The notes beneath the pieces are model-generated. The model did not search any database, was not told the origin of the DNA, and saw nothing but the letters and a program-made list of their open reading frames with translations. Below are positions 3,016 through 27,828 of a stretch of DNA of 44,307 nucleotides, in pieces. Positions within the stretch are counted from its first letter, which is position 1, and every line of letters begins with the position of its first letter. Source of the DNA: a virus; the IMG/VR virus record IMGVR_UViG_3300022891_000005, positions 1 through 44,307 of that record. The stretch is one strand, 5' to 3'. The translations under genes were made by a program, and so were the position numbers.

Positions 3016-5834
3016 CAGGGCCTCGCTCTCATGCCCCATCGGGCGGGTAGGAATATCTGGATCGGCTCGCCGGCGTCGAGCGACTTCACGATCCCGTTCA
3101 CGCTGCGCGTGACCGTGGCCGTCTGGTCATACGGGCCGGATCCGCTCACCGAGCCCATGCTGGTCACGGTGATCAGCTCACCGGCGATGAGCACTGAGTA
3201 CGGCTCGGCCGTGGTGCCCCAATGCTCCCGGACGTCCGAGGAGGAGAAGGTCAGGGAGGTGGCCGTCGAGTTGACACCGGTTTTCAGTGTCGTATATTTC
3301 GCGCCGTAACGCCGTGCAGACAGCCCGTAGACGCCGGTGAGGTAAGGCCCGTATGGCGTCAGGTTGAAGTCGATCGTGCGCGTGATGTTGGAGATCATCT
3401 CCGTGTAGCCGCGCACGATCTCCGTCGTCACCGTCGGCCCCCCGGCGTACACCGGCAGGTTCGACAGGATGAACGGCCGGCCGAGATCCAGCCAGGCAGC
3501 ATCGTCGACGGTCACCTCGGAGCGGTGCAGTTCGAGCGTGGCTACCGAGAACCGGAGTTCGTCCCACGTCCCCAGGAGCACCTCGCGCTGTGCAAGAGGG
3601 ATGAGTTGTCTATCCTCGCTCGCGTTGCGCGGGATGGAGACGTCGAACAGGCCAACGCCGTCGGGATCGTCCTCCCTCGGGTTGACGTTGTTCGGGCCTT
3701 CCTCCTTGACCCATCGGCCGAAGGAGCCGTCAGCGCGCGTGATCGTCACGTCGTTGCGGATGTCCCGGTTCTCCCGCGGTCGCAGCGAGCCGGAGAAGAC
3801 GTGAGCCGCGTAGTCCAGCGTGGGCCCGGAGCGGTTGAGCAGGGAGTAGTACGAACGGATCGCGAGACCGAGCTTGTCCCGCGGCGCGTGCAGGATGCCG
3901 CCGTCGATGTCCGCGCACTCCTGGAACAGGTCCATCGGGAACAGCAATCCCTGCGCCCCCATCGTCGGCGTCTGATCCTCACCGTCGATGGAGTCCGGAC
4001 CGATCCACCAGAACGGGATACCTAGCTCGGCGGCCAGCCGCATGGCGCGGTCGCGGGCGTTCTCGCCGACGTAGCCGTTCGTGCTCATGGTGAAGTCGGC
4101 GCCGGTGAATTCGAGATCTTCGCGCGAGAGCGCGACGTGGGCGATCTGGAGGTCGCTCTTGCCGGTGAACGGCCAGGAGATCCAGGACGAAGCGCGCCCG
4201 GACGTGCCGGCGAACGATCCCGTCATGCCGTACAGTACCGGCGCGCCGACCGCGTACCAGCCCCACTCGAAGTTGACGTTTTGGTCCATGAGTAGCCGCA
4301 TGGCGATCCACTGATTCGGCTCGGCGCCGGCCCCGAACGATGCGTTCGAGAAGAACAGCGAGGTGCCGTTACGGTCGAACAGCTCCATGGAGTAGTTCGT
4401 GGTGGAGACGTTGAAGGTCGCCTTGTAGACGGTGCCGCCCCGGTAGTAGATGGAGAAGATCTCCCGGTTGGCCGCGGGGATGGCATCGAACTTGAAGTAG
4501 AACAGCGCGAAACTCTGCGCGCTCACCGCGCCGGTCGTGACGGCCACGCCGGACGCGTACCCGTCATCGTCGGTGAAGCCGAGCGCGCCGGCCGAGCCGG
4601 GCAGATCAGGCGCGGTGCCGAACGCCGCGGACTTCATGTAGCCGGTCTTGCCGACATAGGCACCGATCGTGGTGGCGCCCAGGTCGCTCTCCATCGGCCA
4701 GTACCCATCCATGGCATACCGGGTGAGGTTGCGATAGATCGGCGAGCGCAGCGGCTTCTGGCCGGACATCAGGCGCTCAGCCACCGAGGATGCGCTGATG
4801 TTGACTACGACGTCCGTGCCGGTCGTGTCCCACTCTGAGGGAAACTCGGGGATTTCACCATGAAACCGGTAGTCCGCGTCGGTGATCTCCGCGCTCGCCG
4901 CGAGGGCCCAGGTATTCGGCGAGGCGAGGCCGTCGGACCAGGAGGTGGTACCGGACGCCTGCGCCGTCGCGTCCATCCGTGCGACCACCGTGCCGGCGAT
5001 GCCGTTGCGCAGCTCGAACGAATAGATCCTGCCCGTGAACGGATCGGCGTTGAAGGAGGTGGCGAAGATGCCACGACCTCCGGCGTTACCGGTCGTGCCG
5101 ACTTCAAGCGGCGCGTTCGAGGCGAAGATGCTGGTGGTACCGGTGGTGCCGGTGATCGTGGAGCCGAGCTGCGTCCAGGTGCCGTTGATCGAGGTGGACG
5201 TGTAGAAGGTGAGCGCGTACTGGCCGGCGCCGTTGTTGACGTCCAGCGTTGCGCGGAACGCCTGCCGGCCGCGGCCGGCGATGGTGGCTGTACTGCGCTG
5301 CACGATGCGGCCGCTCACTGCGCCGTTCGTGGACCAGATGAGCATCAGGTAGCCGTGCTGGTCCGTGCAGAAGGCCCATGCTCGCTGATCCACGCTGATG
5401 ACGTACTTGCCGGCCAGGACGTGGCCGAGCCGGCCGTACCAGTCGTCCGCCTCAGCGTCGATGCGGATATCGATGTCACCGGTGATATCGAGGCTGGCCT
5501 TGTCCGCGGTCCACGCGCGGGCCCCGTCGTAGTCGCGGGTGCCCGGTGTGTTCGTATCGGTGAGCCGCAGGCTGGTCCCGGCCTGCGTGATCGAACACCG
5601 GTATGGCGTGTAGAGGCCAAGGAGGCGGTAGTACGGGGACAGCGGGTTGCGGTTGGAGTAGCGGCCGTCCAGGTTGTCCAGGTAGAAGGAGGCGACGTCA
5701 GAGGCGATGTTCGCCTGCTCCGCCGAGGAGCCGCGGGTGATCCGGACGTCGCGACCGAGGCCACGCGTGTCGGAGGTGACCGCGGTCCATGCACCATCGA
5801 TCTTGATCTCTTGCTTGATCGCCTGAAGCGCCAT
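3015..5834 (-). CDS. large minor tail/baseplate-type protein
   Basis: Encodes 939 aa, directly after the tape measure and overlapping its stop by one base (TGATG). That overlap fixes ATG 5834 (MALQAIKQEIKIDG) and rules out the longer in-frame extension. The N-terminus resembles tail-hub proteins. Residues about 120-330 and 410-600 have repeated beta patterns with aromatic and Gly residues of the concanavalin/LamG type, suggesting carbohydrate contact. The C-terminus carries an IAGELITVTSMG...VTRSVNG module also seen in the connector at 10784-11818. The likely role is the tail tip, with glycan or receptor binding. Domain limits are estimates by eye. Confidence 0.8.
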   Translation of the reverse strand: MALQAIKQEIKIDGAWTAVTSDTRGLGRDVRITRGSSAEQANIASDVASFYLDNLDGRYSNRNPLSPYYRLLGLYTPYRCSITQAGTSLRLTDTNTPGTRDYDGARAWTADKASLDITGDIDIRIDAEADDWYGRLGHVLAGKYVISVDQRAWAFCTDQHGYLMLIWSTNGAVSGRIVQRSTATIAGRGRQAFRATLDVNNGAGQYALTFYTSTSINGTWTQLGSTITGTTGTTSIFASNAPLEVGTTGNAGGRGIFATSFNADPFTGRIYSFELRNGIAGTVVARMDATAQASGTTSWSDGLASPNTWALAASAEITDADYRFHGEIPEFPSEWDTTGTDVVVNISASSVAERLMSGQKPLRSPIYRNLTRYAMDGYWPMESDLGATTIGAYVGKTGYMKSAAFGTAPDLPGSAGALGFTDDDGYASGVAVTTGAVSAQSFALFYFKFDAIPAANREIFSIYYRGGTVYKATFNVSTTNYSMELFDRNGTSLFFSNASFGAGAEPNQWIAMRLLMDQNVNFEWGWYAVGAPVLYGMTGSFAGTSGRASSWISWPFTGKSDLQIAHVALSREDLEFTGADFTMSTNGYVGENARDRAMRLAAELGIPFWWIGPDSIDGEDQTPTMGAQGLLFPMDLFQECADIDGGILHAPRDKLGLAIRSYYSLLNRSGPTLDYAAHVFSGSLRPRENRDIRNDVTITRADGSFGRWVKEEGPNNVNPREDDPDGVGLFDVSIPRNASEDRQLIPLAQREVLLGTWDELRFSVATLELHRSEVTVDDAAWLDLGRPFILSNLPVYAGGPTVTTEIVRGYTEMISNITRTIDFNLTPYGPYLTGVYGLSARRYGAKYTTLKTGVNSTATSLTFSSSDVREHWGTTAEPYSVLIAGELITVTSMGSVSGSGPYDQTATVTRSVNGIVKSLDAGEPIQIFLPARWGMRARP

Positions 5835-12227: not shown

Positions 12228-13219
12228 CCACCGAACTTGCAATGCCGGCCGCGAGGTGTCAGCTCAAGCGGCCAGCCGTGCTCCGGGCAGTCCAGCGGGT
12301 TGGCCTCACGCGCGAGGTTGCGCGCGTGGTCGGCGCGTGCCTCGTGAACGATGCCGCGCAGGGACTCCCACGATCCGCCCGTGTCCGGCGGTGCGTAGGT
12401 CGCGCCGCCCAGCGTGAGCGGGCCGAGCGCGATCGGGACAGCCAGACCGCCCGCGGTGATCGCGAGGTCGTCCGGAGGGCCCGCCAGCGTGGGAGCGCCG
12501 AGCGCGATCGGGAGGCTGAGGCTACCAATACTCAGCGCCAGGGTCTGGCTGAGCGTGGGAGCGCCGAGCGCGATCGGGAGGCTGAGGCTACCAATACTCA
12601 GCGCCAGGGTCTGGCTGAGCGTGGGAGCGCCGAGTGCGATCGGAACAGCGAGTCCACCAGTACTCAGCGCCAGAGTCTGACTGAGTACTGGTCCGCCGAG
12701 CGCGATCGGAACGGCGAGCCCGCCGGCGGAAATGCTCCCGCCGCCCACCTCGTCGGCCTCGAAGACCACATCGGCGAAATACGAGGCTCCGTTGCCGGAC
12801 TCGATCGTGGCGAACTGGTTGGACACGGGCGTGATGGCAAGCCATCCGTTGTCCGTCCCGGCGGTGAGGTTGCCCGATATCTTCGGCCAGGGGTAACTCG
12901 TGGTGGCCACGTAGCGTTCAGGGATGAAGATCGAGACCTGATATTCGACGCCACCGGTGACCGCCACGCTGAGCGCGTTGGAGACCTGCCAACCGGAACT
13001 CGTCACGGGGAACGAGGCACTACCCAATGACGCCTGGTCCGAGACACGGTAGATGCCCACCGTGTAGCCGGATCCCGCGGCGTCAGGAAAGAAGTACCTG
13101 CCGGCCGTGATGGTGCCGGAGACGGCGGGCGTGAAGTTCGTGGCAAGACAGTACGTCGCCGAGTCGGTGAGGTTGTTCAGTGCCGGCGTCTCGGTGCCGA
13201 AGAGGTTTTCGGCGACCAT
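12215..13219 (-). CDS. repeat-rich virion fibre/decoration protein (DUF4082-like N-terminus)
   Basis: Encodes 334 aa. Residues about 15-150 look like a beta-sandwich of the DUF4082 type (SGTITAGRYFFPDAAGSGYT...). Residues about 160-275 are five 22-residue repeats of the form (S/T)xGGLAVPIALGxPTLSQTLAL. The C-terminal 50 residues include DCPEHGWPLELTPRGRHCKF, a Cys/His motif. It lies between the connector and capsid decoration genes, so it may form a head fibre or whisker, or a tail-side fibre. The repeats suggest a beta-helical or collagen-like rod whose length can change by slippage. Confidence 0.7.
   Translation of the reverse strand: MVAENLFGTETPALNNLTDSATYCLATNFTPAVSGTITAGRYFFPDAAGSGYTVGIYRVSDQASLGSASFPVTSSGWQVSNALSVAVTGGVEYQVSIFIPERYVATTSYPWPKISGNLTAGTDNGWLAITPVSNQFATIESGNGASYFADVVFEADEVGGGSISAGGLAVPIALGGPVLSQTLALSTGGLAVPIALGAPTLSQTLALSIGSLSLPIALGAPTLSQTLALSIGSLSLPIALGAPTLAGPPDDLAITAGGLAVPIALGPLTLGGATYAPPDTGGSWESLRGIVHEARADHARNLAREANPLDCPEHGWPLELTPRGRHCKFGGHTV
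12423..12752. repeat. 66-bp tandem repeat inside fibre gene
   Basis: Units begin at 12489, 12555, 12621 and 12687, with a diverged unit before 12489. Units 12489-12554 and 12555-12620 look identical base for base, which points to a recent duplication. The others encode the same 22-residue motif with drift. Confidence 0.85.
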
Positions 13220-20651: not shown

Positions 20652-22019
20652 TCAACTCTTCATGAACCGCACGCGCGGGCGCGGCTGGACGTCGATCTCC
20701 ATCAGCGCATAGCGCATCTGGTCCATGCCGTCGTCCTCGTCCTTCATGGGCTCGTCCTTGCCCTTGTCGTTCCAGACGTAGCCGGGAATCTCCGCGACCG
20801 TGGAGGTCGGCTTCTTGGCCTCCTCCGCTTCGAGGTCGCGCACGATCCCGGCGTCGCGGAAGAACTTCAGGCGCGCACGGCCGCGGGCGTCGGGGCGGAA
20901 GCGTGAGGCTGTGACCTGAAGGCCATCCTTCACGCTCTTGTTCGCCGGCCGGGTGGGCTGGCCGATGTGGCGTTCAAGTGTGGCCCGGTCCTCAGCGTCG
21001 TGATCGCAGATGATGATGGATGGTCTCTTGGCCTGCCATCCGGTGACAGGCTCACCCTCATACGGCAGGATGCGCCCGGTCTCCGGATCGACCGGCCCCC
21101 AGCCGCAATGCGCACGGATCATGCGCGCGTGGTCTTCCACGAGGACTTTCGTCTTGTGGATCTCGTTGACCAGGATCGCCTCACCGTCGGGAGCGACCGC
21201 CCAATCGCCCCAGACGAACGGGTGCACGAATCCGAAGTCCACACTCCAGATGCGGCGCCAGTCCTCGGGGATCTCGAACCGGTCGACCACGTGCAGCGCC
21301 GGGTTGAAGTCTTCGTAGATGACGCCTTCGGCTGCTGCCCAGATGCCCTTGCGCAGGCGCAGGTAGCGCACGCCGGTGAGCGAGTCGAGCTTCTCCATGT
21401 AGTTGCGGCCGGCCTCGGTCATGGAGCCGTCCTCGTTGAAGTAGCGCGGGTTGTCCTCGTGACGCGAGTGCAGCATCAACGTCTTACCGGCCTCGCAGCG
21501 CAGCTTCAGCCAGTGCGTGGGCTCCTGTGGATTGCAGTCCATGATGATCTGCGAGAAGGAGATGGCGCCGTTGCGCAGGCGGGACACGCACGCTTCGAGA
21601 TCCTCGACCTCGATCTCGGTGGCTTCCTGGATGTAGATCACGTCGTACTCGGTGGACATGACCTTCATCGGGTTGTCCATGCCGCCGATGGCGATGCGTG
21701 AGCCGTTGGAGTAGCGGTAGCTCGGAGGTTCGCGCCGGTTGCCGCCGAAGAAGCTGACGGTGCCATCGAGCAGGGCTTGCACGGCTACGTGCTTTTCGTA
21801 CGTCTCGATGCCCGAGGTGGTGAGCGAGACGGCGGTCTTGCGCAGCATGAGCGCGCGCACGTTGGGCGTGAGCAGGCAGATGTAGTGCAGCTTCTCCAGC
21901 GCGGCGCGGCTCTTGCCGGTGCCGGCCGGGCCGGCGAGCAGCACTTCACCCCCGCGGTACCGCATTGCTTCTGCCGCGGCGCCCCGGGGGCGGAAGTGAT
22001 GGACGAGGGCGGTGGTCAC
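20652..22019 (-). CDS. terL: terminase large subunit
   Basis: Encodes 455 aa from GTG 22019 in a GTGA overlap. The ATPase domain has Walker A GPAGTGKS (30-37) and Walker B YDVIYIQEATE with E132. The RNase H-like nuclease has D261 in SVDFGF, Asp residues in IIICDHDAED (339-344), and D430/D433 in DDGMDQMRYAL. It pumps DNA into the prohead and cuts the concatemer. With no cos-type signal evident, and a genome that closes on itself, headful packaging is possible. Confidence 0.95.
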   Translation of the reverse strand: MTTALVHHFRPRGAAAEAMRYRGGEVLLAGPAGTGKSRAALEKLHYICLLTPNVRALMLRKTAVSLTTSGIETYEKHVAVQALLDGTVSFFGGNRREPPSYRYSNGSRIAIGGMDNPMKVMSTEYDVIYIQEATEIEVEDLEACVSRLRNGAISFSQIIMDCNPQEPTHWLKLRCEAGKTLMLHSRHEDNPRYFNEDGSMTEAGRNYMEKLDSLTGVRYLRLRKGIWAAAEGVIYEDFNPALHVVDRFEIPEDWRRIWSVDFGFVHPFVWGDWAVAPDGEAILVNEIHKTKVLVEDHARMIRAHCGWGPVDPETGRILPYEGEPVTGWQAKRPSIIICDHDAEDRATLERHIGQPTRPANKSVKDGLQVTASRFRPDARGRARLKFFRDAGIVRDLEAEEAKKPTSTVAEIPGYVWNDKGKDEPMKDEDDGMDQMRYALMEIDVQPRPRVRFMKS

Positions 22020-22177: not shown

Positions 22178-22183
22178 GTCTCT

Positions 22184-22211
22184 ACTATAGCAGACCTACG
22201 GCCTACTGCAA
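22184..22211 (-). promoter_or_regulatory. TATAGT promoter, leaderless; candidate late promoter
   Basis: TTGCAG, 16-bp spacer, TATAGT, AGAGAC, ATG. The -35 lies inside the last codons of terS. It is the only member of the promoter family facing the leftward structural block, so it probably drives terL and the virion genes. Confidence 0.75.
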
Positions 22212-22709
22212 GTCCTCGGCCGAGAAGCCCTCAATGCGGTACGTCGTAGTGGTGTTCATGTCGCCGGACACCTGCAAGCGCGTCGGAAGCTGACCCATCT
22301 CCTCCGCGGCCTGCTTGAGCACCTGAGCAGCCGCGCGCACGTCCACCTCGTGCACGATGACCTCGGTCGTCTCGCCGGTATCGTCCTCGACCGTCTCGCG
22401 AATGATCCTGCCGTTCGGCGCCACCTTCGGCGTGGGCGTACGCGCCACCTCGAACAGTTCTTCCAAGGCGCGCAGGCGCTCCGCCTTCTGCGCGATCAGG
22501 ATGCCGGCGAACTCGTTGTCCGCATCGGCGCGCAGCGCGTTGATGGCCTCGGCCTCGCGCTGCTTGAACTGCGTGATCGCACCCTCGGTCACGCCGTACC
22601 GCACGGCCAGGGAGGCCTGCGTGACGTCTTCGAGCGCGAGCGCGCGGATCAGGCCGTTGCGCTTCAGTCCGCCGAGCTTGCCGCGGTCCCGCTTCGTGGC
22701 CCCGCTCAT
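22203..22709 (-). CDS. terS: terminase small subunit
   Basis: Encodes 168 aa. The N-terminal helix-turn-helix (LEDVTQASLAVRYGVTEGAITQFKQRE, about 27-53) should bind DNA. The middle is helical (ILIAQKAERLRALEELFEVA) for oligomerisation. The acidic C-terminus is ...IEGFSAEDLQ. It is separated from terL only by the leaderless 53-aa gene. It recognises the packaging initiation site. Confidence 0.8.
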   Translation of the reverse strand: MSGATKRDRGKLGGLKRNGLIRALALEDVTQASLAVRYGVTEGAITQFKQREAEAINALRADADNEFAGILIAQKAERLRALEELFEVARTPTPKVAPNGRIIRETVEDDTGETTEVIVHEVDVRAAAQVLKQAAEEMGQLPTRLQVSGDMNTTTTYRIEGFSAEDLQ

Positions 22710-23095
22710 CGCTCCGCCTCAAAGACGCACGAAGCTGACCACCTGGCACGGCACCGGACGCAAAACGGGTCCTCAGTCTCGCCAATACGCCAGATGTGAT
22801 CACACTCCGGTTCCTGCACCGGAAGTGCAGATTTAGGAAGCTCTTTATCCACAGCCTGTGGATAACTTTCCCGAACACGCGGCTGACCAGGGCCGTAGTT
22901 GCCCGAAGGCCTGTGGATAACCTGTGGATAACTCGTCACATGCCCGCGGCACGACTCCTCGGGCCAGCGACACGGCGTCGGATGCTCCGCCGCATCCGGG
23001 CCGAACTGCCACGTCGGGCGCGAAAGACCACGCAAGGTCGTGGCCATATGCGTCGGGGCAGGGCCGAAGTTGAGAACGACCTCCCGACTAGCCAC
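22706..23095 (-). CDS. Cys-containing protein whose gene holds DnaA boxes
   Basis: Encodes 129 aa from GTG 23095, overlapping the upstream gene by eight bases and terS by ATGA. The C-terminal CDHIWRIG...DPFCVRCRARW offers C/H/C/C ligands for a Zn ribbon. Residues about 55-86 (SYPQVIHRPSG, ESYPQAVDK) are the translation of the DnaA-box array on this strand, so this stretch may be shaped by DNA function. A shorter product starting downstream is possible. Confidence 0.65.
   Translation of the reverse strand: MASREVVLNFGPAPTHMATTLRGLSRPTWQFGPDAAEHPTPCRWPEESCRGHVTSYPQVIHRPSGNYGPGQPRVRESYPQAVDKELPKSALPVQEPECDHIWRIGETEDPFCVRCRARWSASCVFEAER
22845..22931. other. DnaA-box cluster, candidate replication origin
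   Basis: Four perfect TTATCCACA 9-mers lie in 87 bases: 22845-22853 (+), 22857-22865 (-), 22912-22920 (-) and 22923-22931 (-). The first two form an inverted pair and the last two a direct pair 11 bases apart. This is the high-affinity DnaA box. Chance occurrence of four is very unlikely in this base composition. Confidence 0.75.
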
Positions 23096-23258
23096 CGAAA
23101 CCTCCCGAGATCGCGACCGGGATGAGGATCACGAGCACGACGATAGCCGCGAGCTTGATCAGGGCCCACCAGCGTGCGCGACGGCCGTACTTCTCAGCAC
23201 GAGCGCGCCCGTACTCATCGGCGCCGGAGTGCCAGGCGCGCTCGAAGAAGTCAGGCAT
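23088..23258 (-). CDS. small single-helix membrane protein
   Basis: Encodes 56 aa (MPDFFERAWHSGADEYGRAR...). A charged N-terminal half is followed by one membrane helix (LIKLAAIVVLVILIPVAI) and a Gly-rich end. The ATG follows the preceding stop without a gap. The function is unknown. Confidence 0.68.
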   Translation of the reverse strand: MPDFFERAWHSGADEYGRARAEKYGRRARWWALIKLAAIVVLVILIPVAISGGFGG

Positions 23259-23477: not shown

Positions 23478-23866
23478 CGAATGGCCTCCTTGAACGCTCC
23501 CAGCGTGGCATGGCGCCGGAAGAAGTGCTCATCACTCCACGTCCAGAACGATGTCCAGTCATCATCGGTGCGCACGGCTACCGCGGACTGCTTGCCGCGC
23601 TGTAACCGCATGGCCCACAGCGTCTTGGTCTTAGCGCTCGGGGTGCCACGGATCGAGTGCGGGGTGTGCCCGATGGACTGCCACGGACCGGCGACCTTCC
23701 AGCCGAGAAGGTCCGCCTCCACGGCCAGGGTCGCGACCGGATCGGGTGGTGAGGCGATCGGCTCATCGCGGGAGGTGAGTGCGGGCGCCGGGAACGGACT
23801 GCGCGCCGCGGGCGCGGGCGCTTCGCCGACCGGCGGGAACGGGTAATGCCTGATTTCGAGCATCAC
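23474..23866 (-). CDS. unknown protein with Pro-rich N-terminus
   Basis: Encodes 130 aa. It starts with GTG 23866 (GTGA overlap) or ATG 23863. A Pro/Ala-rich low-complexity stretch (10-45) precedes a C-terminal domain with several Trp (LLGWKVAGPWQSIG, DDDWTSFWTWSDEHFF). No family is recognised. It follows the nuclease gene in one operon. Confidence 0.65.
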   Translation of the reverse strand: MMLEIRHYPFPPVGEAPAPAARSPFPAPALTSRDEPIASPPDPVATLAVEADLLGWKVAGPWQSIGHTPHSIRGTPSAKTKTLWAMRLQRGKQSAVAVRTDDDWTSFWTWSDEHFFRRHATLGAFKEAIR

Positions 23867-24312
23867 GGGTGATACACCATGCCTTGGATGGCACTGTCCG
23901 GATCACCGAGCTCGATGGCCGCGAAGACGGCCTGTGCCGGCGAAGCCTCAAGGAAATGCACGGCACGCGTCAGGGCTGCCTGATCCAGCCAGCCGATGAT
24001 CCGGTTGCAGGTCCGGTCTCCGCCGGAACAGAGCAGGCCGCGGACGGCTTGCGGGCGGAAGCCGAGCACGTGATTGTGATCAATGCCGAGCCGGCGCGCA
24101 CCAGTGCCCTTCGGATCGTCCGGATGCTTGCCGCGCGCTTTCTGGCAGATGTAGCAACGGCCGAGCTGCGCGAGGTAGAGGCCACGGTACATCTGCGGCG
24201 TGACGCCGTACGTGGTGAATGCGTGCCGGTAGAACGTGCGCCACTCCCGCGCCACCGGCGCGAGCATGCCGGCCGGTGGCGTCCAGGAGGTGACCGGATC
24301 TTCCCTGGTCAT
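23863..24312 (-). CDS. recombination endonuclease VII-like HNH nuclease
   Basis: Encodes 149 aa. Structural Zn ligands C53 and C56 (CYIC) and C95/C102 flank the catalytic LGIDHNHVLGFRPQAVRGLLC (DHNH 78-81), with N103 in TCNRIIGW. This is the His-Me finger arrangement of endonuclease VII (T4 gp49-like). It resolves branched DNA before packaging, which suits its place upstream of the terminase genes. Confidence 0.9.
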   Translation of the reverse strand: MTREDPVTSWTPPAGMLAPVAREWRTFYRHAFTTYGVTPQMYRGLYLAQLGRCYICQKARGKHPDDPKGTGARRLGIDHNHVLGFRPQAVRGLLCSGGDRTCNRIIGWLDQAALTRAVHFLEASPAQAVFAAIELGDPDSAIQGMVYHP

Positions 24313-25185: not shown

Positions 25186-25191
25186 AGCTCA

Positions 25192-25220
25192 ACTATAGCA
25201 GACGGGCCGTAGATGTGCAG
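25192..25220 (-). promoter_or_regulatory. TATAGT promoter, leaderless, -35 in an iteron
   Basis: CTGCAC, 17-bp spacer, TATAGT, TGAGCT, ATG. The -35 lies within the iteron-like TGTGCAGGAT at 25214-25223. Confidence 0.75.
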
Positions 25221-25487
25221 GATCGGCCAGGGGAGCCTGCACATGATGTTTTCCCTGCTCAGGGGCCGTTTTTCGAGCAAGTGTGCAGGGTTGTGCAGGG
25301 TATTTCCCTACTCGGTTCTTACATTGAGAAAACCCCTTACTCCCTGGAGCCCTTTTATATATACGTACTTTTACCTTGCACATCTTGCACAAGAGAGTAA
25401 ATAAGGGGGGTGAGCTGCAAAAACGGGTGTGCAGGGTACCGATCGGTACCCTGCACACACCCTGCACCGCAGGCCAGACCCTGCACA
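25214..25487. other. iteron and A+T-rich region, candidate replication origin
   Basis: There is no credible gene in 25186-25491. The 10-mer TGTGCAGGGT occurs exactly at 25282, 25292 (tandem), 25428, and inverted at 25448 and 25478. Variants lie at 25214, 25235, 25376, 25385 and 25459. Between the iteron groups, 25351-25377 is strikingly A+T-rich (TTTTATATATACGTACTTTT) for this genome. The block abuts the stop of the primase-helicase gene, the architecture of an iteron replicon. Confidence 0.75.
25427..25458. repeat. 32-bp perfect palindrome containing two inverted iterons
   Basis: The arms read GTGTGCAGGGTACCGA and its exact complement with no spacer. Each arm includes a complete TGTGCAGGGT. 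It could be a dimer-binding site or a cruciform, or it could terminate primase mRNA. Confidence 0.85.
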
Positions 25488-25491
25488 CCTC

Positions 25492-27828
25492 TCAAATGGC
25501 GTCTGACCCGATGCCGTGCAAGACGGTCACGAACTTCCCCTCACTGCGTGTCCGCTTTGAGGTGAGGCCGTCCACCTTCTGCCGAAGATCCCGACTAAAG
25601 ATCTCTTTGGTAGTCGTGTCCCTTGTGCGGCCTTCGCCCTCGCACCAGTTCCGGTATTTGAGGTATAGGTGATCAAGGTCAATCGCCTGTTTCGGATCGA
25701 CCGTGCACCAGTCCTCGATGAAGGCGCCGATCGGGTCCGCGAGCCGGCGCGTAGCCTCCGCCTCGCCGCGCCCGCTCTCAGGCTGAGTGAAGCGACCGCG
25801 CTCATCGAGCCGGTCGAGTCCGTCCAGGGCCCAGTTCAGGATGCCGCTCAATTCCCCCATCAGCTTCTCGGTCAGGGCAGTGTCCTCGCGGCCGTAGAAC
25901 GACTGCTTGAACGCGACGTAGAGCATGCGGTCAACCAAAGCGCCGGACCGGTCGGAGAAGGTGGGCGTGTCGTTGCTCATGAGCATGAAGCGCACCCCGA
26001 GGCGGCCCTTCCATGCGGCCTTGTTCTTGCGGTGAACCGTGACGTGGTCCTCGCCCGAGATCTCCAGCATCACCTGGACGGCATCACCGATATTGCGCGA
26101 GTGCCAGCGCACATCCGAAGCCACGGCCAATGCGGAGCCCACGAACGGCTCAAGGCCGAAGGTGCCGCCGATAAGGCCGAGGTTGAGTCCGGAGACATTG
26201 TCCTTGCCCACCAAGGCCGTCAGGACACGGGCGATCGTGCCCTTGCCGGAACGCTTCTTGCCGATCAGGGCAGCCATCTTCTGCTGATCCGTGCGGCCGC
26301 TCAGGACGTACCCGAACCACTCTCCGAGGAAGTCCTGCGCCTGGCCGTCGTCCGGGAGCACCTGATCAAGGAAGCCCTGCCAGTTCGGGCACCGTGCATC
26401 AGGGTTGTAGTCGAACGGCAGGCTGAACAGATTGAAGCGGCGCGGCGTGTGCGCCAGCAACTCCCGCCGGACCACGACACCGTTGGCCGCGGCCAGGGCT
26501 CGATCCTCCTCGCCGAGATGCTGCAACTCCGCCACGGCGAGCGCATCCATGACGTTCGCGATCTTCTGCTTCGTGGGAGCCCACGGGTTACGCTCCGGCG
26601 CATCCCCCGCCTTCTTGGCCGCGGTCAGGTAAACGGCGTCGCCGGTCTGCTGATACAGCCAGCGCCGGACGATCGGGTCCGGCTCCACCTCCCAGTGCGC
26701 GCCTGTCCACCGATAGAAATCGTCCTGCCACCACATCAGGTGCGGCACACCGTCACTAGCAGGGATCAGCGTCTTCAGTGCACGCGCGACCTTGAGCGGT
26801 TGCCCTGGGGGCGCGAGGATCGCCAGGCCGGGAGTCTCGTCCGCCTGCAACCGGGCAGGCTCGACGATCTCGGCCATCCACTGGCCCTGCCGTTCGGCAT
26901 CCGCACGCGACCGCTCGATCGTGCTCAGCGTGTCCTCGTCGAGGACGTCCCAGCCTTCCGCCGGCCAGCGCTCGCGCCCGAGTCGCGACACCTCGGCCCG
27001 GACGTCACCGGCCTCGATCACCGCGCTGTAGTGCCAGCTCTCGAACGCCAGGTCCCGGACAGCGTTATTGCGGTTGCCCTGGACGAACTTCTCACCGAAG
27101 CGCGCGCAGGCGCGCCGCCATGCGTCTCGGACTTGCTCCTCGGTCATCAGGTGATCCGAGACGGCATCGTCGAAGAGGTCATCGTCGACCGCGACCGCGG
27201 GCATCTTCAGCGAGCGCAGGAACGCGACCCATTCCGCGGGGAGCTGGGGGACCTCCTGTGTGGCGACGGGGACCTTGCACCGCTCGCCGGCCTCGTTGTA
27301 CCAGAGGTACTCGTTGCCGCTCGGGTGGATGCTCGGTGCCACGATCGCGTACCGGTGCCCGTAGTGGAGTAGATCGAGCTTGTCTCCGTAGCGCTCGCGG
27401 AGAACGCCCTCGATCCGGGAAAGATCAAGATCGGTAGGAATGCGGTAGAAACGGTGCCGGCGTGCGCTGTCCGCGCCGTGACTGGTGGAGTAGGGCCCCG
27501 CCGGCAGGGCTACGCCCACCTGCTGCTCCACCTGGCCGAGGACGTCGGCTCCCTCCAACCCGTCGATATCGAACGCGATAAGGAACTTCGGTAGTCGAAT
27601 CGCGATGTTGAGGTTTCCGCGCTGGCCGGACCAGACGGTGAGCTGATCGTGACCGACCTTCTTGCCCTCGCGACCGGTGTAGCCGGCCGGAACAGGCTTC
27701 TTCTGCTTCGGCGCGGTGCCGACCGGGATGGGATTTTCCCAGCCGCGCCGCCAATAGACCTGCGCTCCTCTGGCGTAAGGAGCGGCCAAACCACTACCAC
27801 TGGTAGGATTCGTCAAGACAGTCTCCAT
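25492..27828 (-). CDS. prim-pol / D5-type primase-helicase
   Basis: Encodes 778 aa. Residues about 10-205 are an archaeo-eukaryotic prim-pol domain with FDID (86-89), STSHG..SARRHRFYR, and VAPSIHPSG. A linker leads to a D5_N-like region (about 335-500) and an SF3 helicase with Walker A GKKRSGKGT (523-531) and a FMLMSNDTPTF segment. The C-terminus is winged-helix-like. It should unwind the origin and prime replication, as in P4-type and AICE/plasmid replicons. No SD is visible before ATG 27828. Confidence 0.9.
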   Translation of the reverse strand: METVLTNPTSGSGLAAPYARGAQVYWRRGWENPIPVGTAPKQKKPVPAGYTGREGKKVGHDQLTVWSGQRGNLNIAIRLPKFLIAFDIDGLEGADVLGQVEQQVGVALPAGPYSTSHGADSARRHRFYRIPTDLDLSRIEGVLRERYGDKLDLLHYGHRYAIVAPSIHPSGNEYLWYNEAGERCKVPVATQEVPQLPAEWVAFLRSLKMPAVAVDDDLFDDAVSDHLMTEEQVRDAWRRACARFGEKFVQGNRNNAVRDLAFESWHYSAVIEAGDVRAEVSRLGRERWPAEGWDVLDEDTLSTIERSRADAERQGQWMAEIVEPARLQADETPGLAILAPPGQPLKVARALKTLIPASDGVPHLMWWQDDFYRWTGAHWEVEPDPIVRRWLYQQTGDAVYLTAAKKAGDAPERNPWAPTKQKIANVMDALAVAELQHLGEEDRALAAANGVVVRRELLAHTPRRFNLFSLPFDYNPDARCPNWQGFLDQVLPDDGQAQDFLGEWFGYVLSGRTDQQKMAALIGKKRSGKGTIARVLTALVGKDNVSGLNLGLIGGTFGLEPFVGSALAVASDVRWHSRNIGDAVQVMLEISGEDHVTVHRKNKAAWKGRLGVRFMLMSNDTPTFSDRSGALVDRMLYVAFKQSFYGREDTALTEKLMGELSGILNWALDGLDRLDERGRFTQPESGRGEAEATRRLADPIGAFIEDWCTVDPKQAIDLDHLYLKYRNWCEGEGRTRDTTTKEIFSRDLRQKVDGLTSKRTRSEGKFVTVLHGIGSDAI

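Follow-up and report, generated by a model that had tools for sequence, protein, structure and literature searches.

The stretch of DNA analysed here (the window, a metagenomic virus contig from IMG/VR, 44,307 bases, 65.7% GC) raises the question of why a phage should carry a cluster of perfect DnaA boxes inside an open reading frame adjoining its packaging genes. A preliminary description had recorded four perfect copies of TTATCCACA at 22845-22931, arranged 3:1 in orientation within an 87-base span, and these coordinates proved to be exact. The four sites are the only copies in the entire window, where 0.07 would be expected, and none of 100 shuffled sequences reached this number. The looser pattern TTWTNCACA returned the same four sites (0.27 expected), and four were reached in one of 100 shuffles. 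Elsewhere in the window, only two sites with up to one mismatch were detected (2268 and 20197), both of them solitary. In this study, a DnaA-box cluster was defined by at least two consensus 9-mers, exceeding chance, in a stretch of about 100 bp, and the array is such a cluster. The features of the region are collected in Table 1.

Table 1. Features of the window in and around the DnaA-box array (coordinates are positions in the window).
Feature	Coordinates	Strand	Remarks
Terminase large subunit (terL)	20652-22019	-	
TGCTATAGT promoter-like motif	22181-22192	-	directly after terS, before terL
Putative terminase small subunit (terS)	22203-22709	-	contains an HTH, long helices, and a beta hairpin; name based on position and a weak fold match
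Box-bearing ORF	22706-23095	-	129 aa, GTG start; no PHROG, Pfam or NCBIfam match
DnaA box 1	22845-22853	+	TTATCCACA; one half of a 21-bp inverted pair (other half, box 2)
DnaA box 2	22857-22865	-	TTATCCACA; flanks G...GG
DnaA box 3	22912-22920	-	TTATCCACA; in tandem with box 4, 11 bp apart
DnaA box 4	22923-22931	-	TTATCCACA
Putative membrane protein	23088-23258	-	56 aa; stop codon overlapping the GTG of the box-bearing ORF
Endonuclease VII	23863-24312	-	member of the same syntenic block
TGCTATAGT promoter-like motif	25189-25200	-	would drive an early operon ending in terS
Putative main origin	25186-25491	.	AT-rich, CCTGCACA iterons, 32-bp palindrome
Prim-Pol / D5-type primase-helicase	25492-27828	-	

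The minus strand carries, in this order, the primase-helicase gene, an AT-rich strip, four genes including that for endonuclease VII, small ORFs, the putative terS, and terL. Past terL follow portal, protease, capsid, and tail genes, and this structural gene region also contains a tandem array of 66-base units in 3.4 copies (12486-12709). The terS gene is named by its position and a weak structural resemblance, and its identity is not firm. Comparison with sequence families recognised only the HTH, and no family calls the protein a terminase. A low-confidence structure prediction for the protein (mean pLDDT 70, pTM 0.38) gave an SPP1-like small terminase as its best PDB match (3zqq, E 0.036), and several of its viral structure matches carry the name terminase small subunit. 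The ORF containing the boxes had been described as coupled on both sides, which agrees with our analysis: it is open and overlaps both neighbours, sharing an ATGA at 22706-22709 with the start of the putative terS. It was also unmatched in the phage collection, and a partial homologue was found in locus L005 only among the relatives searched. The ORFs filling the corresponding slot are unrelated between the window with L005, L331, L010-L013, and L020.

In the lineages examined, the minus-sense boxes (relative to terS) are translated as VDN or VDK in the frame of the surrounding ORF, which raises the alternative of a peptide motif, with the boxes as by-products of a PVDN/YPQ tail motif of the encoded proteins. 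Therefore, the ORFs of the window (with its own codon usage), L331, L011, L013, and L020 were recoded synonymously in 20,000 trials each. No trial yielded at least three boxes in the window ORF (four observed) or at least two in that of L331. For L011, L013, and L020, where four, three, and two boxes are observed, at least three arose in 3, 0, and 0 of the 20,000 trials, respectively, and at least two in 95, 36, and 39. Moreover, the boxes of the window additionally encode YPQ and VIH, and one other frame would hold a stop. An origin at the protein level is thus hardly credible, and, judged by these sequence comparisons, the box array is a DNA-level feature that is independent of the enclosing ORF. 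The recoding and the comparison with relatives lend good support to the earlier statement that host-type DnaA sites overlap a coding frame.

The relatives were obtained by a terL scan, from which the best 80 of 381 loci were used, many of them short fragments, and by a terS-profile scan yielding 19 loci, partly on the same contigs as the terL set; an initial terS-profile scan of genome contigs gave no matches. Among the best 80 of the 381 terL relatives, clusters of at least two copies of TTATCCACA occur in L011, L012, L013, and L020, and L010 contains a cluster of TTGTCCACA, which it uses in place of TTATCCACA. The prevalence of either form of box was counted in 15 terS-bearing loci representing ten lineages. 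The 300 bp preceding the putative terS genes (4,500 bp in total) hold 28 boxes, compared to a single one in the remaining 206,224 bp of these loci, and only one of 663 control windows of 300 bp holds a box. Six of the ten lineages possess at least two boxes in the terS slot (five of nine if that of the window is set aside), and the boxes are absent from this slot in the other four (L006, L007, L008, and L341/L342). The distance from a perfect box to terS varies from 11 to 260 bp. The nearest relative by TerS, L005 (82% identity), has one box left, and the adjacent copies read as decayed. Because the cluster is absent from four lineages and decayed in L005, it is dispensable. DNA alignment of the strips upstream of terS did not reveal a common core.

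None of the five distant terS loci L340 and L344-L347 (30-47% identity), which were excluded from the prevalence count, contains a cluster, and L345 has a lone box at -359. A further family member, L310, carries two boxes ending at the terS start; it was found by its box pattern and was thus not counted. For the same reason, no weight was given to 238 loci fetched by box patterns, a set that includes family members and in which all ten terL matches have boxes upstream. No box near terL was detected in 26 actinobacterial prophage loci examined (42 fetched), one of which has a single TTGTCCACA at a distance of 8.7 kb, and the 4-5 kb around the terminase of the nearest annotated Streptomyces and Thermobifida phages by terL contain no perfect box. 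The boxes at the left end of Microbacterium phage OneinaGillian, initially taken to adjoin its terminase, were rejected as a further case, being single boxes among hypothetical genes in 5 kb without an annotated terminase. An unrelated low-GC phage, L290, carries three copies of TTATCCACA and one of TTGTCCACA at 4886-4994, 0.5-0.6 kb before terL. We treat this array as an anecdote and not as further support: its 90% relative L445 has no boxes, and the only loci with boxes among 21 examined (of 25 fetched) are four that have one and the same terL.

The recurrence of the cluster in the same place, despite a changing surrounding gene, points to a control site read by the host rather than to the main origin. 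The observation of the array is thus sound, and stronger than the single sequence could show in the preliminary description.

The phage probably infects a soil actinobacterium, as relatives of its terL are found in prophages of Lentzea, Amycolatopsis, Streptomyces, Nonomuraea, and other Actinomycetota. While TTATCCACA represents the DnaA consensus, TTGTCCACA is listed as a high-affinity DnaA box for Streptomyces coelicolor and Mycobacterium tuberculosis in PMC4285127, and the use of these two forms suggests host DnaA as the reader. In addition, the box stays constant while TerS and the origin repeats change, so the reader is best explained as a host protein: the TerS proteins of the window, L011, and L020 share 35-58% identity and their HTH changes, and the 9-mer remains the same. 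For comparison, we analysed the dnaA regions of 40 actinobacterial loci, 30 from a search of 79 members of the class and ten from hosts of the terL relatives. These regions contain 68 boxes in 33 of the 40 loci, preceded by G in 53 and followed by G in 46 cases. Of the four close pairs among them, two are inverted at 12 bp and the other two are in tandem, at 11 and 20 bp; the window array shows both the 12-bp inverted and the 11-bp tandem type. We therefore consider it very likely that the array is recognised by host DnaA.

Recognition by DnaA does not by itself make the array an origin. The preliminary description had already set an iteron region apart from the boxes, about 2.3 kb away, and we confirm it as the AT-rich strip at 25186-25491, which is less stable than any other DNA of the window on scales of 50, 100, and 200 bp. 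A strip is present in the matching place in all ten sequences examined (the window, L005, L006, L007, L008, L011, L013, L337, L020, and L341), with or without boxes, and that of L011 is without short iterons. Its repeats vary by phage (CCTGCACA, CCTGCACC, CCTGCAAC, CTGTCCCAG, or CCGGTCC) and its AT-rich core is mostly common; the strips at this place provide a natural set of diverging putative origins from a single family of phages. We regard the strip as the putative main replication origin, and the boxes are probably not that origin. A primase-helicase was detected by tblastn in 9 of 14 relatives, including the box-less L006, L007, L008, and L341; L011 was unmatched, and L010, L012, L331, and L342 were taken as too truncated to judge. 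Two predicted proteins of the window were disregarded in this comparison, g23089 as mis-framed and g23251 as seemingly non-coding. The loci L011 and L013 have the array in common and share 99% identity in TerS and in the first 290 primase residues. Neither BLASTP nor PHROG relates the remaining helicase halves of these two proteins (encoded at L011:329-2788 and L013:1320-3560) to each other, and the origin strips of the two loci are different, which looks like a joint exchange of helicase and origin. Because the same array occurs with a different helicase half and strip, it does not follow the replication module, and no linkage of the boxes to this module was found among the relatives.

The preliminary description had proposed a second origin, a plasmid-state origin, or a DnaA-titrating trap as possible functions of the array, and both kinds of proposal have to be weighed against this background. 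As an auxiliary or conditional origin, the array DNA would be opened by host DnaA to start replication, e.g., soon after DNA entry or while the phage is maintained as a plasmid. The four strong boxes with their oriC-like flanks and spacing are in line with such a function, as is the low stability of the array DNA, which falls among the lowest 0.3-0.9% of windows (lowest 0.34% at 50 bp), although the boxes themselves cause much of this. However, the phage encodes its own primase-helicase, the least stable DNA is the separate strip beside that gene, which persists in relatives with or without boxes, and no AT-rich unwinding element comparable to it adjoins the array. The retention of the array in L011 and L013 further weakens this proposal, and no clear origin was apparent from GC skew, whether computed by window or at fourfold sites; we therefore regard an auxiliary origin as unlikely. 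As a sink, the phage copies would absorb host DnaA and halt chromosome initiation, with no local role of the array. Several high-affinity boxes are present, as in datA, and plasmids carrying DnaA boxes titrate DnaA in E. coli according to PMC5835720, which leaves a trap as a possible activity. On the other hand, a sink would not need a fixed address, yet the clusters stay in the strip before terS, and several relatives have no boxes. Titration alone thus fails to explain why the arrays of different lineages lie in roughly the last 260 bp ahead of terS, and we consider a mere sink quite improbable.

Two further explanations would dispense with DnaA or with a DNA site. In the case of a packaging site, the repeats would be a pac, cos, or terminal-repeat signal for TerS or another phage protein, their likeness to DnaA boxes being incidental. 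The position directly before terS fits such a site, and the reading is kept alive because of Streptomyces phage Dagobah, the sole isolate with a TerS homologue (recorded there as a putative transposase): its annotated terminal repeat of 1,187 bp ends at position 1187, and the homologous gene lies at 1282, 95 bp further on. Short GTGCAAAG-like repeats are present at the inner end of this terminal repeat (L326:1070-1187). Nevertheless, the 5 kb of Dagobah that were examined contain no perfect box, the 9-mer does not follow the divergence of TerS as a packaging site should, and L006 has no boxes although its HTH resembles that of L011. Besides, the exact DnaA consensus and the exchange for TTGTCCACA in L010 would both be due to chance, which makes a packaging site a rather poor prospect. 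Finally, an RNA hairpin might set the translation of terS or transcription termination. The inverted pair could fold, but the z-score of -4.5 in L011 contrasts with values of -1.36 (window) and +0.07 (L331), and L010 and L020 possess no dyad of at least seven pairs, so such a hairpin is highly improbable.

Since the place of the cluster is fixed, we favour control in cis of the terS end of an early operon. Perfect matches to the 12-base promoter-like pattern occur in the window at 22181, 25189, 30520, 38585, 38844, 38899, 40536, 40831, and 41061. Together with these nine, 25 matches with up to two mismatches were counted, compared to 12 expected. The boxes are located between the motif at 25189 and terS, this promoter being known as a motif only. 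Among 12 loci examined, the motif TGCTATA[CG]T was found 1.8-2.7 kb upstream of terS in all ten that are long enough, L010 and L331 ending short of that upstream gene. None of the 12 loci contains a copy between the boxes and terS, and the next copy, where there is any, follows terS. Because a promoter-like motif lies upstream and none between the boxes and terS, the array appears to stand in the path of transcription into terS.

We consider a cis role linked to the position before terS somewhat more probable than its absence. The more specific proposal, in which host DnaA binds the array and the array exerts its cis effect where the early operon ends, right before terS, is tentative, and a roadblock as the form of this cis role is more doubtful still. 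In such a mechanism, host DnaA would occupy the array, and the bound protein would hinder or otherwise set the transcription going into terS. As the phage copies multiply, the boxes would exceed the available DnaA and the block would be released, and the packaging protein would then increase late in infection. In bacteria, DnaA can repress or activate genes, and at the origin of lambda it influences transcription (PMC8203912 and PMC3985674). In its most elaborate version, the array would serve as a phage copy counter: DnaA would block read-through into terS, the four sites on each new genome would dilute DnaA, packaging would start once the host supply is passed, and initiation in the host would be starved as well. 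This version is speculative, and we regard it as improbable.

Several known systems resemble parts of this arrangement. The DnaA boxes in and near the origin and promoters of lambda are likewise phage-borne sites for host DnaA that work together with transcription (PMC3985674; PMC8203912), but they are located at the replication genes and the origin, whereas those of the window precede terS, away from the putative origin. The datA and other titration loci of E. coli are alike in their clustered consensus boxes, which bind much DnaA according to PMC5835720; in contrast, the window array is located inside a phage ORF and in a fixed place before terS. The oriC boxes of actinobacteria share the GTTRTCCACAG flanks and the 11/12-bp pairs, but the array of the window has no dnaA/dnaN context, few perfect boxes, and no comparable unwinding element. 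The form of iteron-type phage origins beside a primase is matched by the strip at 25186-25491, an element separate from the boxes. A search of the mainly open-access literature by titles and the beginnings of abstracts returned no case of a DnaA-box cluster recurring before terS.

How phages time the passage from copying their genomes to packaging them is an open question, which the array makes testable. If the proposed role is true, these phages would use the replication initiator of their host as a position-specific signal at their packaging genes.
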